23,659 bases of DNA from IMG/VR virus record IMGVR_UViG_3300038825_000309, positions 1 to 23,659 of that record; one strand, given 5' to 3'. Position numbers and translations under genes: made by a program. The notes beneath the pieces are model-generated. The model worked only from the letters and a program-made list of their open reading frames with translations, ran no database searches and had not been told where the DNA came from. Of this stretch, positions 2,220 to 15,934 are shown in pieces. Within the stretch, counting starts at the first letter, position 1; the number at the start of each line of letters is the position of its first letter. Origin of the DNA: a virus.

Positions 2220-4433
2220 TTAAAAAGGAGCTTTCCAATCTTCCTCCTGTTGTTTCTGCATCATTGTTATTCTAGCTACATAGTAACCCCTGAGCTGCTT
2301 TCCATCTATACTCTTTCTACCTACCTCAAATCCAAGTTGTTTCATAGCTCTAGATACATTATAAGTATTAAGCCTTAGCTTACCATCAGAAGCCCCTATT
2401 AGCTCCTCTAGTATCTCTGTATTAGATAAGAATTGCCCTGTATTCTCAGGAACTGTTCTATAGTTCTTTATAATAAGCTCTCTCTCTGATGTAATTACTT
2501 CAAATCCCTTATTAATAGACTCTCTCTTATCAGCTTCCTCAGTAGTCAGCTGGTAGTTATATCCATTCCTATATAAACTCCAAGCCTGTCTCCATACATC
2601 ATCTATATTAATAGAAGTATATGAGAAGTTAATATCCAATACAGAGAAACATAGCCATCTAGTATTCTCTATATCAGCTAAGAAATCAGTCTTATTAGTA
2701 GATCCGAAGAAATTACATCTTCTAGGCTGTTCTATCTCATTAACTGCATAGGCTTTACGCTCCTTAACTACAGACTTAGATATAATAGCTTTCAGCTTAT
2801 TAATCTCCACATAAGATAATGATGATAGTTCCTCTAGATTATATATAAAGTTCTCAGAGAATCTAAACTCTGTATCTTTATTATCAGCCAATGGACTCTC
2901 TGTATAATACTTATCTCCGAACGGATTAAGGAATCTAAGGAATGTAGACTTTCCTGTTCCCTGTTTCTCTCCTACTAATACAAAGACTATTCTATTCTCT
3001 TTATTATATAAGCTACAAGCTATGCACCTTACTAAAGCCTTCCTAAACATCTCTACAAAATACTCATTGTCATCTGTAGATATATGTTCAGCTAATTGCT
3101 TAATATAATCAGGATCAGTATCAGTATATTCCTCTAATCCTGTAAAGTATTCTATAAAAGGATTATAAGACTTAACAAAGTCTGAGTTCAAAAGAGACTT
3201 AATTCTATCTAATCCAAACTTGAACCCCGAATGCTGGAGATCCCTATATATGTCATTAGTATTAAGTAGCTTGAATGAGTTATCTGATAGCTTCTTAAAG
3301 TCTGTTGTCTGATTTATTTCATTATATAGAAATTCATATTTTGAGTTTAGATAATGCTCTACCTTGACTATCATAGGCTTATTATCTAAATCAAACTCAT
3401 CCTTATACTTTAGATATACCTGATTAAAAATAGCTCTAGAATCATCTCCATTAATATCGAACAGCTCCCCACATTTAATAACATCTGAGTTACTCCATTT
3501 CTTCCCTGATCTATTTAACTCTCTAGCATATTCCTCTACAGATTGAGTCTTAGCTAATTTCTTAAAGTCTTTATTAATATCCTCTAGATATAAAGGTCTG
3601 AGCTTCCCATTCTGCAATCCATCTAAGATAGTTCTAATAGCTCCATCCATATCTTTAGGACTTCTCTGTCTGATAGCATCTACTAAAGCTCCTTCACAAA
3701 CTATCTCATCTAATACTCCTCCAGCTACATAACCTCCTAATAGATTAGCAGCTGATAATAATACTTCATGCTTTTTTCCATCAGGAGCAGAGAATATCAT
3801 ATCTATAGCATTCGTTATTAACCTTTCAGAACTAGATTCTGCTTTAGATGATGATACTCTCTTCTTTTGCTTGTAAACTGTAGGAAGCTCCTGACTTAAT
3901 TCTATTTGTATGTTTTCTTTAATATCTGTATATATCTCAGCTGTAGGATTGAAGAATAAATGTGGATCATAAGAGATATATCTAGGTCTAGAAATGTCCT
4001 TACAAGCCTTATCTACTTCTATTCCATAAGTTGACTTATAATAGTCTTGAAGAGCTAAGAATGTATCTCTGTGCTTATCTCCATTTATCTTAACTATTAC
4101 AGCTAATCCATTCCCTGAACAGGACATGAATAAATATTCTGTATAAGGATCAAGAGATAACAAACCTCTAACATCCTCTAGATTATCTATATTATCTATG
4201 TCTATAATAATTCTATCATTATGTTCCTTCAGTCCTTTCTCATTCCTCTTAGAAAATGTCCCTGACCCTGTGAAGTAAGGAAGTGATGTCTTAATAGACT
4301 TATCTCCTGTCTCTCTGAGTTTTTCTACAGCTCCTTTCCATCTACCTCTCTTAATGCCATCCATGACTTTAGAGATAGGTACATCTACTCCTCCTGTAGT
4401 TTGCTTAATGTTAGGGAATATTGTTGTATTCAT
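2220..4433 (-). CDS. Primase-helicase: AEP-like N terminus plus VirE/SF3-like ATPase
   Basis: This 737-aa replication protein has two parts. The N-terminal ~170 residues match the BT4734-like / primase-polymerase type: IIIDIDNID (75-83) gives the acidic D-x-D pair, CSGNGLAVIVKI (105-116) is the SGxGL strand, and ISRPRYISYDP (148-157) the basic motif. After a linker of about 300 residues comes a VirE-type (virulence-associated E) P-loop ATPase. Its Walker A is GEKQGTGKST (488-497), Walker B is FIYNLEEL (529-536), the sensor is GSTN (577-580), and NTRWLCF supplies the arginine region. The likely role is priming and unwinding at the phage origin. It is the largest gene of the leftward DNA-metabolism block and lies within a tightly packed run of genes. 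Separate primase and helicase genes are absent, which supports a dual role. Confidence 0.88.
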   Translation of the reverse strand: MNTTIFPNIKQTTGGVDVPISKVMDGIKRGRWKGAVEKLRETGDKSIKTSLPYFTGSGTFSKRNEKGLKEHNDRIIIDIDNIDNLEDVRGLLSLDPYTEYLFMSCSGNGLAVIVKINGDKHRDTFLALQDYYKSTYGIEVDKACKDISRPRYISYDPHLFFNPTAEIYTDIKENIQIELSQELPTVYKQKKRVSSSKAESSSERLITNAIDMIFSAPDGKKHEVLLSAANLLGGYVAGGVLDEIVCEGALVDAIRQRSPKDMDGAIRTILDGLQNGKLRPLYLEDINKDFKKLAKTQSVEEYARELNRSGKKWSNSDVIKCGELFDINGDDSRAIFNQVYLKYKDEFDLDNKPMIVKVEHYLNSKYEFLYNEINQTTDFKKLSDNSFKLLNTNDIYRDLQHSGFKFGLDRIKSLLNSDFVKSYNPFIEYFTGLEEYTDTDPDYIKQLAEHISTDDNEYFVEMFRKALVRCIACSLYNKENRIVFVLVGEKQGTGKSTFLRFLNPFGDKYYTESPLADNKDTEFRFSENFIYNLEELSSLSYVEINKLKAIISKSVVKERKAYAVNEIEQPRRCNFFGSTNKTDFLADIENTRWLCFSVLDINFSYTSINIDDVWRQAWSLYRNGYNYQLTTEEADKRESINKGFEVITSERELIIKNYRTVPENTGQFLSNTEILEELIGASDGKLRLNTYNVSRAMKQLGFEVGRKSIDGKQLRGYYVARITMMQKQQEEDWKAPF

Positions 4434-12946: not shown

Positions 12947-14827
12947 TTATCCTAATGTATTTCTGTGCTTTCTAGCTCTATCAAATACTATAATTAAATC
13001 TTCTCCTGATATTCTTACATCAGGGATTCCCATTTGAGCTGTCTGAGAGGCACTAGATATTCTTCCTCCTGAGCTTCCTGAAGGTACAAATAATTCAGGT
13101 CCATGCTCCCCAACAAGATAAGGCTGTCCTGACAGAACATTCCCTCCTGTAGCCATTCCTGTTAATCCACTTGCAAAGATACTAGCAAAGTTAGTCCCCC
13201 CTACAGCAGCTACTCCTGTAAAACTTCCTCCTGTTATTGCAGTCATAATAGCAGCGAATATAGCTGCTTTAACTATCATCTTAACTAAATCTCCTATTAA
13301 AGACTTTGCAAAATTCTTAAACTTCTCTCCGAAGGTCATAATATTACCCTCTAAATCCTCAACCTTACCAAATAACTCAACAAAACCATTGCTAAAAGCA
13401 TTTACAAATTGTCTAGTTATTTCACTAACTACATTTATTTTCTCTCCTAAATCATTAAAATCTACACCCCATTGCTGAGCAAAAGAAGGAATCAGAGCCA
13501 TGTTTTCCGCTAGTTCTTTTGTAGAATTTGAAGAGTCATCTAGAGAATCGTTCCATTCTTTCTGTTTAATATGTAATTCAGTCAGAGTAGAAGTATATCC
13601 ACTAATATCAGATTCTAAATTCATAATCTGAGATCGTAGAAAACCTATGTCCTCCATAGACATATCCATCCCAAATCTATCTGTACCTGATTCTAATTTG
13701 GATTTAGCAGCATCTAGATTAGCCTGAGCTACTTTTTTTAATTGTGAAACCTCATCTATTAAGAGCTGTATTCTACTCTTCCCTGATTCCTCAATCTCTT
13801 TATTTATTTCTGATAATCTTTCAGCAGCAGTTAAGCTACTTTTATTAAAGTCATCTAACTCTGATGCTGCATACTTAGTATTTCTACCAAAGGTTAAAAA
13901 CAATCCAGCAGCTGCAGATAATCCTGTTATTAAAGCTCCTAGAGGATGAGTTGATATTGCTACCTTTAAAGCTCTTAATCCTCCAATAAAAGCTGGAAAT
14001 AATCCTATTATAGTTCTAAATCCAGCTGCTATTTTACTTAATACTAAAATTACAGGACCTATTGCAGCAATGAATAATCCTGTCTTTAACTTAGCAGTAA
14101 TCTGCTCTGTACTCATCTTAGATAGAGAGTCTGTTACCTGTTGGAGCTTTTCTTTTAAAGGCTCTAGTATAGGCATCAAAGCAGCCCCTACTTCCTCAGC
14201 GAAGTCCATCATTGCATTCTTCAGCTGAGTAAATGCACCAGCTCCAGCTTCAGCTGCTGCCTTAGCTTGTCCTCTGAATTGTTCAGCTACTACATCAACA
14301 GCAGCTCCAGCTTTTAACTGTTCGGTAGTTAACTCTTTAAGTGCTGGAATAGACTCTCCTAGTTCCCCTGTTAATCCAGCAAAAGTCTTAGCTAAATTCT
14401 TAACACCGAATTCTAATGTTTGTCCTGTTCCACTAGCTAAGTCCATAGAAGCTTCAATAACTTCATTAATCTGATCCTCAGTCATTCCTAAGGAAGCTAG
14501 ATAACTTTGTTGTTGGATTATAGTCTCATCTCCAAACAGAGAGACAGCTTGAAATTCCTTTGCTTTTTCTGTGAGTGATTGAAAAGCATCTTTATTCCCT
14601 TTTAGAGCAGTTAATAAACTAGCTTCAGCTTTAGCCTGTTGATCAAAAGCTCTAATTGATACAGCTGCAAATCCCATCATAGGAACAGTAAGCCCCTGAG
14701 TTAAAGACCTTCCCATTTGAGCTGTGCTTCTCTCAAATTTTCTAAGGCTTCTCTTAGCTGATTTAAGCCCTCTTTCAAGTCCTTGAATCTTAGCTCCTAC
14801 TAATACATTTAATCTAGACTCAGCCAT
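12947..14827 (-). CDS. Tape measure protein
   Basis: This 626-aa protein begins MAESRLNVLVGAKIQGLERG, with a basic helical KSAKRSLRKFERS segment, then TQGLTVPMMGFAAVSIRAFDQQAKAEASL, typical of tape-measure N termini. Long alanine-rich helices fill the middle. Hydrophobic stretches include LFIAAIGPVILVLSKIA and AAIFAAIMTAITGGSFTGVAAV. The end, QPYLVGEHGPELFVPSGS, is the signature tail of this family. The protein sets tail length and is ejected with the DNA; 626 residues at about 0.15 nm each suggest a tail near 95 nm. It follows the chaperone frameshift pair, as in most long-tailed phages. Confidence 0.95.
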   Translation of the reverse strand: MAESRLNVLVGAKIQGLERGLKSAKRSLRKFERSTAQMGRSLTQGLTVPMMGFAAVSIRAFDQQAKAEASLLTALKGNKDAFQSLTEKAKEFQAVSLFGDETIIQQQSYLASLGMTEDQINEVIEASMDLASGTGQTLEFGVKNLAKTFAGLTGELGESIPALKELTTEQLKAGAAVDVVAEQFRGQAKAAAEAGAGAFTQLKNAMMDFAEEVGAALMPILEPLKEKLQQVTDSLSKMSTEQITAKLKTGLFIAAIGPVILVLSKIAAGFRTIIGLFPAFIGGLRALKVAISTHPLGALITGLSAAAGLFLTFGRNTKYAASELDDFNKSSLTAAERLSEINKEIEESGKSRIQLLIDEVSQLKKVAQANLDAAKSKLESGTDRFGMDMSMEDIGFLRSQIMNLESDISGYTSTLTELHIKQKEWNDSLDDSSNSTKELAENMALIPSFAQQWGVDFNDLGEKINVVSEITRQFVNAFSNGFVELFGKVEDLEGNIMTFGEKFKNFAKSLIGDLVKMIVKAAIFAAIMTAITGGSFTGVAAVGGTNFASIFASGLTGMATGGNVLSGQPYLVGEHGPELFVPSGSSGGRISSASQTAQMGIPDVRISGEDLIIVFDRARKHRNTLG

Positions 14828-15169
14828 TTAGAACTCTTTTAATCTATTCTGTAATTCTTTTTTATCTTCAGGAGATAAGACTTTTCTATTAGCTCTCTCC
14901 CATTCAAATTCAATTAGGTCTTTTTGTTTAACTCTATTCTTCTTCTCCATCTGTATATTTAAAAGTAGAGTAGTTTGCCATCTGCATCTAATCCACTCAG
15001 ACCTATCTAATAGCTCCTGACTCTTATAATAGCCCTTTAATGCGTTATCATATTGTCTGAAGGTTAAATCATCTAAAGCTTCAGGAGATAATCTTAGAAC
15101 TCCTAATCCCTGTTGATCTATTTTATCAAAAGTTAGTGGCTCAGAAGAATCTCCTTCCCCTGAAGCCAC
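14828..15169 (-). CDS. Tail assembly chaperone C-terminal part (gpT-like), made by -1 frameshift
   Basis: Read alone this is a 113-aa frame starting with GTG (VASGEGDSSEPLTF...). It is better explained as the -1 frameshift extension of the upstream chaperone. Slippage on GGGAAAG (15175-15181) continues as V-E-V-A-S-G directly into this frame, giving a fusion of about 217 aa. The protein is acidic at its start and helical and basic later (NRKVLSPEDKKELQNRLKEF), with a conserved-looking QYDNALKGYYKSQELLDRSEWIRCRW block. In lambda, the gpG and gpGT pair binds the tape measure and tail tube during assembly. The gene's location directly before the tape measure fits exactly. Independent initiation at the GTG cannot be excluded but seems less likely. 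Confidence 0.8.
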   Translation of the reverse strand: MASGEGDSSEPLTFDKIDQQGLGVLRLSPEALDDLTFRQYDNALKGYYKSQELLDRSEWIRCRWQTTLLLNIQMEKKNRVKQKDLIEFEWERANRKVLSPEDKKELQNRLKEF

Positions 15170-15170
15170 T
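15135..15170 (-). promoter_or_regulatory. Frameshift-stimulating RNA hairpin
   Basis: On the minus strand AGTGGCT (15170-15164) pairs with AGCCACT (15141-15135). Inside, after one bulged T, CAGGGGAA (15162-15155) pairs with TTCTTCTG (15149-15142) with two G-U pairs and a 5-nt loop GGAGA. This 15-bp hairpin begins 4 nt after the slippery heptamer, in the position of known stimulators of -1 frameshifting. It is read directly from the sequence; no folding energy was calculated. Confidence 0.7.
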
Positions 15171-15171
15171 T

Positions 15172-15480
15172 CTACTTTCCCTCAGAGAAAGGCATAGATT
15201 CTCCGAAGATCCCCATAACCTTCTCTATTCCTCCCTCTGTATCATCTATTAAATCGCATACAGCATCAATATCTAAAGAGAACTTCTTGTTAGCTTTTCG
15301 ATGTCCTTCTTTAAATGCTATGAATATCATATTCATTAAGTCATCTAGAGTTAGCTTATCCATCATACTCCCATCTGTAAATTCTGAGATAGGGATATTA
15401 GCTTCTGCTGAGAACTTTCTTAAAGTACCTATTCCAAAGTGAATAGGAAGTTCTTTTTCTTTTAGTGTTACTGTAGCCAT
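15172..15480 (-). CDS. Tail assembly chaperone (gpG-like)
   Basis: This 102-aa protein begins MATVTLKEKELPIHFGIGTLRKFS, continuing EANIPISEFTDG and LTLDDLMNMIFIAFKEGH, the pattern of small tail-assembly chaperones encoded between tube and tape measure. Its C terminus, MPFSEGK, ends at a TAG placed directly after the slippery heptamer, so most ribosomes would stop here while a few shift into the next frame. It would keep the tape measure soluble and recruit the tail tube protein. The spacing from the tube gene is 10 nt. Confidence 0.85.
   Translation of the reverse strand: MATVTLKEKELPIHFGIGTLRKFSAEANIPISEFTDGSMMDKLTLDDLMNMIFIAFKEGHRKANKKFSLDIDAVCDLIDDTEGGIEKVMGIFGESMPFSEGK
15175..15181 (-). 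promoter_or_regulatory. Programmed -1 frameshift slippery heptamer GGGAAAG
   Basis: The zero-frame codons are GAG GGA AAG TAG, so G-GGA-AAG fits X-XXY-YYZ exactly and lies directly before the stop codon. This is the same heptamer used for lambda gpG/gpGT. A -1 slip continues as GTA GAA GTG GCT, which is precisely the frame of the downstream gene. Confidence 0.85.
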
Positions 15481-15490
15481 TTATTTAATT

Positions 15491-15934
15491 TTAAGAGTTT
15501 GTACCCTCTGTAATTGCTCCTGTAAGTTCTATAGTTACTGAGCAAGTAGTATTATCCTCTGTAGGAGCTGATGCTTCTAAAGATGTAATATATCCAGCAG
15601 CAGTATAATACTTATCTCCTGTTACATTAGTAGCAAATTTCACAAAAATCTGTGTACGATTAGATAAATATCCAAATAAATCATCATAACCATATACAGC
15701 AGCAGAAGAAGAGTCTCTCTCTGCATAAAAGAAATTCCCTGAGATACTTCCTGAGCGAGTTGATTCTAACAATTCTCTCCATCCTGAGCTAGATTTATTA
15801 GTAATATCGCGAGTTTCCATAGATAGAGACAAACTACCATCCTGAGAGAATGCAATTAATGTATAAGTCCCACCTGATGATGTCGAGATGTATAGACCTA
15901 TATCCGATCCGTTAAAAATGTTATCTGTAGCCAT
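15491..15934 (-). CDS. Major tail tube protein
   Basis: This 147-aa protein belongs to the TP901-1-type major tail protein family. FNGSDIGLYI (7-16) begins the fold, then DGSLSLSMETRDITNKSSSGWRELLES (about 32-58) is the diagnostic block. SGSISGNFFYAERD and GDKYYTAAGYITSLEASAPTEDNTTCSVTIELTG follow as the remaining strands. It polymerises as stacked rings around the tape measure to form the non-contractile tail tube. The gene lies between the neck proteins and the chaperone pair, as expected for a siphovirus. The short C terminus carries no additional Ig-like domain. Confidence 0.92.
   Translation of the reverse strand: MATDNIFNGSDIGLYISTSSGGTYTLIAFSQDGSLSLSMETRDITNKSSSGWRELLESTRSGSISGNFFYAERDSSSAAVYGYDDLFGYLSNRTQIFVKFATNVTGDKYYTAAGYITSLEASAPTEDNTTCSVTIELTGAITEGTNS

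Follow-up and report, generated by a model that had tools for sequence, protein, structure and literature searches.

A slip word and a downstream hairpin suggest programmed −1 frameshifting in the tail chaperone gene pair of a probable Bacteroidota phage

Recoding signals in known systems

Making a longer version of a tail-assembly helper by a −1 slip is a well-known phage trick. Xu, Hendrix and Duda reportedly set out in 2004 the programmed −1 frameshift of the phage lambda G/GT pair.

Several described systems can serve as points of reference for the locus considered here. In lambda, gpG and gpGT coat the tape measure protein, the T part brings the tube protein, and both leave the finished tail; the word GGGAAAG is a strong bacterial shift word, used also by the archaeal virus HCTV-5 (PMC5009743). 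The same source gives a lambda G/GT ratio of about 30:1 (PMC5009743). Lactococcus phage TP901-1, from a different host phylum, likewise carries GGGAAAG in its tail chaperone pair gpG/gpGT, and mutation of its slip site has been used to block gpT (PMC4493119). Escherichia coli dnaX differs in word (A AAA AAG), gene and product; its heptamer is followed by a simple stem-loop and is helped by an upstream Shine-Dalgarno (SD) stimulator (PMC5009743). Because the word is itself shifty, finding GGGAAAG in yet another phylum is to be expected and is no proof of descent.

The window analyzed here is the whole of a 23,659-bp virus record, IMGVR_UViG_3300038825_000309. Its minus strand carries a head-tail module with genes for terminase, portal, capsid, connectors, tail terminator, tail tube, G, T and tape measure. 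The G/T pair is flanked by the tail tube gene (15491-15934, minus strand; PF06199, 2e-15) and the tape measure gene (12947-14827, minus strand; PHROG tape measure, 4e-23), giving the order tube-G-T-tape measure that is also found in lambda (NC_001416). As in lambda, GGGAAAG stands near the end of G, in the same phase, and T would be reached by a −1 slip; this likeness consists of word, phase and gene order, and not of any established similarity to the G or T sequences of lambda. There are also differences: lambda has five more codons before the stop, whereas in the window the stop is immediate, and lambda has no stable structure directly downstream (minimum free energy weaker than that of shuffles, z +1.8), whereas the window does (z −4.5). 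In this last respect the window resembles dnaX, with a stem-loop of similar size a few nucleotides after the heptamer, stable and marked by compensatory changes; no sign of an upstream SD stimulator was seen in the window. The signal is therefore lambda's word joined to a dnaX-type stem-loop. The first-pass annotation had called it lambda-type with a strong hairpin, which holds for the word and does not hold for the hairpin, since a strict lambda site has no stable structure downstream. We regard it as a real and ordinary member of a known recoding type, with a hairpin that is specific to its clade.

Our reading, to which we give a probability of roughly 0.93, is that programmed −1 ribosomal frameshifting at the junction would fuse T to the tail assembly chaperone G. 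The basis in hand consists of the site, its phase, the open T frame, the lack of an independent start, a conserved and covarying hairpin, gene order and the predicted chaperone fold; relatives, gene order and the fold of G all support what the first-pass annotation had proposed for this pair.

Slip site, stop codon and downstream hairpin

Gene G (15172-15480, minus strand), assigned from its open reading frame, position and predicted fold, would encode a 102-aa gpG-like tail assembly chaperone as the zero-frame product. Its 3' end reads GAG GGA AAG TAG, within the minus-strand sequence 5'-TCT GAG GGA AAG TAG AAG TGG CTT CAG GGG AAG GAG ATT CTT CTG AGC CAC T-3'. The slippery heptamer G GGA AAG (15175-15181, minus strand) lies in exact X XXY YYZ phase, and the zero-frame stop UAG (15172-15174, minus strand; UAA in some relatives) follows it directly, just as had been noted at first pass. 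After a slip to GGG AAA, reading would continue as GTA GAA GTG GCT and stay open for 115 codons (15175-14831, with the stop at 14830-14828); the T frame, 115 codons and stop entered at GUA, accordingly spans 14828-15175 on the minus strand. The sequence bears out the fusion of about 217 aa that had been foreseen, with the junction G-K-V-E-V-A. Among 7240 in-frame positions of the window genes, GGGAAAG occurs in phase once, and any in-phase XXXYYYZ word 28 times. A separate AAAAAAG at 3777, in the primase gene (2220-4433, minus strand), is in phase and has moderate predicted structure downstream; its −1 extension comes to 3 codons, and it was judged a chance occurrence.

When IMG/VR was scanned with G, T and portal, 11 other contigs proved to carry the gene pair, with G proteins 64-99% identical to that of the window. 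Loss of the heptamer and its phase in close relatives, which would have counted against the first-pass reading, was looked for: GAG GGA AAG followed by a stop (TAG or TAA) is kept in 11/11 contigs. Exactly these 11 were returned by an IMG/VR pattern scan for Met-Pro-Phe-Ser/Ala and then Glu-Gly-Lys-stop in which any synonymous codons were allowed, and all are spelled GAG GGA AAG. Codon invariance of the heptamer is statistically weak when taken alone (18 of 48 invariant G residues are also codon-invariant). In every relative that contains T, its frame is open from the slip point, at 68-95% amino acid identity.

Since every member of the clade has its stop right next to the heptamer, the shift might occur mainly with the stop in the A site, a single peptidyl-tRNA-Lys slipping from AAG to AAA during slow termination at UAG or UAA, rather than by tandem slippage. 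Such a slip would not need GGG, yet GGG is invariant, including the G contributed by GAG, and the lambda stop comes 15 nt later; we consider a one-tRNA slip unlikely and favor tandem slippage on the whole heptamer.

The probable stimulatory hairpin (15135-15170, minus strand) has 15 bp and one bulged U, arranged as 7 bp, a 1-nt bulge, 8 bp and a 5-nt loop, and begins 4 nt after the heptamer; that spacing is short, and some relatives have 6-7 nt. Folding agrees with the first-pass description of a 15-bp, one-bulge hairpin at this distance, with z about −4 (−3.9 to −4.5). The stretch 15184-15126, which includes an outer helix, folds at −24.9 kcal/mol, where shuffled versions average −13.9 and none of 200 is as stable (z −3.9), and the 50 nt after the heptamer in the window fold at −21.4 kcal/mol (z −4.5). 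The hairpin's energy is matched at 0.06% of the 7240 in-frame positions in window genes. It is predicted in all 10 related contigs with readable sequence, the remaining one of the 11 having ten unknown bases inside the hairpin, and it folds in each of 7 distinct complete sequences; five distinct relatives tested gave z values after the heptamer of −4.2 to −5.5.

Changes that keep pairing were found at four stem positions (U-A/A-U/G-U; C-G/A-U; A-U/G-C; and A-U/G-C/G-U), and in one relative a 3-nt insertion lengthens the stem and leaves the T frame unbroken. Column-based covariation underestimates this support, as the bulge shifts register between relatives, and pairs were for that reason counted by stem position, a count that relies on each sequence's own predicted fold and so leans towards paired outcomes. 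The arms of the hairpin encode the most variable part of T, its start, which is predicted to be disordered; pairing there is consequently not explained by protein conservation.

It could be supposed that the hairpin is an unrelated element, such as a terminator or a processing site, and lambda, which shifts at the same word with no hairpin, does indicate that one is not strictly needed. A terminator scan of the minus strand found none, however, an Rfam search gave the hairpin no match, and the structure lies a few nucleotides past the slip site, its conservation being limited to the clade with the word and the adjacent stop. We hold an unrelated role to be rather improbable; stimulation of frameshifting by the hairpin appears quite probable from the comparative sequence evidence.

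An outer helix may extend the structure. Slip-site GAAAGU (15174-15179) is complementary to an ACUUUU segment just past the hairpin (15128-15133, minus strand), over 6-8 bp. This pairing is invariant in all relatives, which means that covariation lends it no support, and any role for it is putative. In free RNA the longer stem could hide the slip site; a ribosome standing on the slip site would open the outer helix.

The T frame, its protein partners and the likely host

A GTG at 15169 (15167-15169, minus strand), 2 nt past the G stop codon and within the 5' arm of the hairpin, is the proposed start of T, and the SD-like word GAGG lies upstream of it. Translation of T alone from this codon, coupled to termination of G, can draw on that position and that word. 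It is largely refuted by the relatives: the GTG is found only in the window, GAG, AAG, GAA or CAA standing in its place elsewhere, and the relatives have no other conserved ATG, GTG or TTG ahead of the conserved part of T. The codon is moreover buried in the hairpin, and ribosomes of Bacteroidota as a rule make no use of SD sequences (PMC8710568). Independent translation of T from a start of its own is therefore very improbable, and GTG is judged not to be a start; to judge from these comparisons, T is almost certainly produced in fused form only, as the first-pass annotation had thought probable from the burial of its GTG.

The frameshift that we propose would work as follows. Most ribosomes would end at UAG or UAA and release the 102-aa gpG. 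In a minority, tRNA-Gly on GGA and tRNA-Lys on AAG would slip one base back onto GGG and AAA, the hairpin at the mRNA entrance holding the ribosome during the slip, and these ribosomes would read on into T to give a small amount of the 217-aa GT. By analogy with lambda, the coat of the tape measure protein would consist of many copies of gpG and a few of gpGT, the latter recruiting the tail tube protein through its T part. Slippage itself, its efficiency, its stimulation by the hairpin and the division of labor in assembly are all inferred here.

Structure prediction bears on the identity of G (pLDDT 85). Its model matches annotated tail assembly chaperones in a viral library, for example A0A8S5M2L5 (E 2e-4, TM 0.76); proteins of unnamed function in the same library match at similar scores. 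Fold searches of the PDB listed only weak, unrelated matches for G, a negative that does not speak against the fold. No Pfam match was obtained for G, and T matched a Pfam tail-chaperone family below threshold. The predicted model of G thus matches a phage tail assembly chaperone fold. For T, a helical domain is predicted to follow a disordered 12-residue linker at the junction.

T has a homologue in Cellulophaga phage phi39:1 (tblastn, 33% identity, E 1e-6). Among 50,697 phage records its homologues occur in Cellulophaga and Bacteroides phages only, the Bacteroides matches being weak by tblastn alone; a tblastn search of the phage collection with G gave no match. Comparison with the pair of the Bacteroides phage F4 family gave E values of 7e-6 for G and 1e-7 for T, from profiles that are shallow. 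No relatives turned up in bacterial genome contigs with either alignment, that of G or that of portal, so host assignment rests on phage relatives. A Bacteroidota host, in line with the Bacteroidota phage of the first-pass annotation, is likely on the strength of the T homologues, the absence of an SD-like motif before 24 of the 27 window genes, and a BT4734-like/VapE primase encoded in the window. VirE proteins of Cellulophaga phages show that the same primase type is also seen there.

Comparative RNA evidence of this kind documents G/GT recoding in Bacteroidota-type phages, whose hosts generally do without Shine-Dalgarno pairing; the open-access literature searched, of incomplete coverage, yielded no article about G/GT recoding in phages of this kind.

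Other signals in homologous Bacteroidota pairs

Isolated phages, too, have an out-of-frame G/T pair in the same gene order: Bacteroides uniformis phages F4, F2 and Bacuni_F1 and Cellulophaga phages phi39:1, phi18:1 and phi17:1. Most of these pairs have runs of A8-A10 in place of GGGAAAG, and no hairpin. The first-pass annotation had taken the slip site as an argument for deep conservation; what extends to these phages is the out-of-frame arrangement of G and T, and not the slip word. T lies in −1 in some homologous pairs and in +1/−2 in others.

In F4 and its IMG/VR kin (L034:3956-3968; L059-L070) the junction has A9 with T in −1 and no hairpin, and the same holds for two further loci (L072:482-494; L035:5785-5797); in each of these the A9 is the sole run of at least 8 A in the locus and stands exactly at the G/T junction. 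Among Cellulophaga phages, the junction has A9 with T in +1/−2 in phi18:1 (L087:30629-30638) and phi12:1 (L089:399-408), A8 with T in +1/−2 in phi39:1 (L033:3963-3972), and A10 with T in −1 in phi17:1 (L088:399-409). Set against phi17:1, the frames of phi18:1, phi12:1 and phi39:1 suggest slippage during transcription, −2 frameshifting or a sequencing error in the homopolymer. That the needed frame shifts with run length between close relatives suggests, on sequence comparison, either polymerase slippage or a sequencing error in the run.

Runs of A8-A10 are a known type of polymerase slip site, and their presence in homologous pairs of other Bacteroidota phages is what could be said for RNA polymerase, rather than the ribosome, as the source of the fusion in the window; in its clade, A runs near the junction reach 4 at most, and GGGAAAG has no long homopolymer, so that the idea is scarcely credible there.

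It is possible, as a tentative reading, that the fusion mechanism has been swapped within a homologous gene pair: a slip word with a hairpin in the window clade, as against an A8-A10 run in the Bacteroides and Cellulophaga phages, which would then be read by a slipping RNA polymerase or by another ribosomal slip (−2/+1). If this were true, selection would act on having a minor GT fusion, whichever slip mechanism makes it. With hairpin-assisted GGGAAAG on one side and relatives with A runs on the other, it can be tested how different recoding signals keep the same type of fusion, and this exchange of signals inside a single gene pair is the more interesting lead.

Two more distant loci may be added. 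A relative with a phi39:1-like T (L058) has GGGAAAG in phase at 4007-4013, 27 nt ahead of the stop of G, and lacks a strong hairpin; in L055, a distant portal relative, no convincing G/T pair was found.

Existing records of these phages present the pair in other ways. The phi39:1, phi18:1 and F4 records each deposit one recoded gene as two "hypothetical proteins," and the pairs of F2, Bacuni_F1, phi12:1 and phi17:1 are likewise split into two. The F4 entry puts the start codon of T inside G, out of frame and well before the junction. In the phi39:1 record neighboring structural genes carry proteomics notes and gp19 and gp20 (G and T) do not, which fits proteins that leave the finished tail, if weakly.
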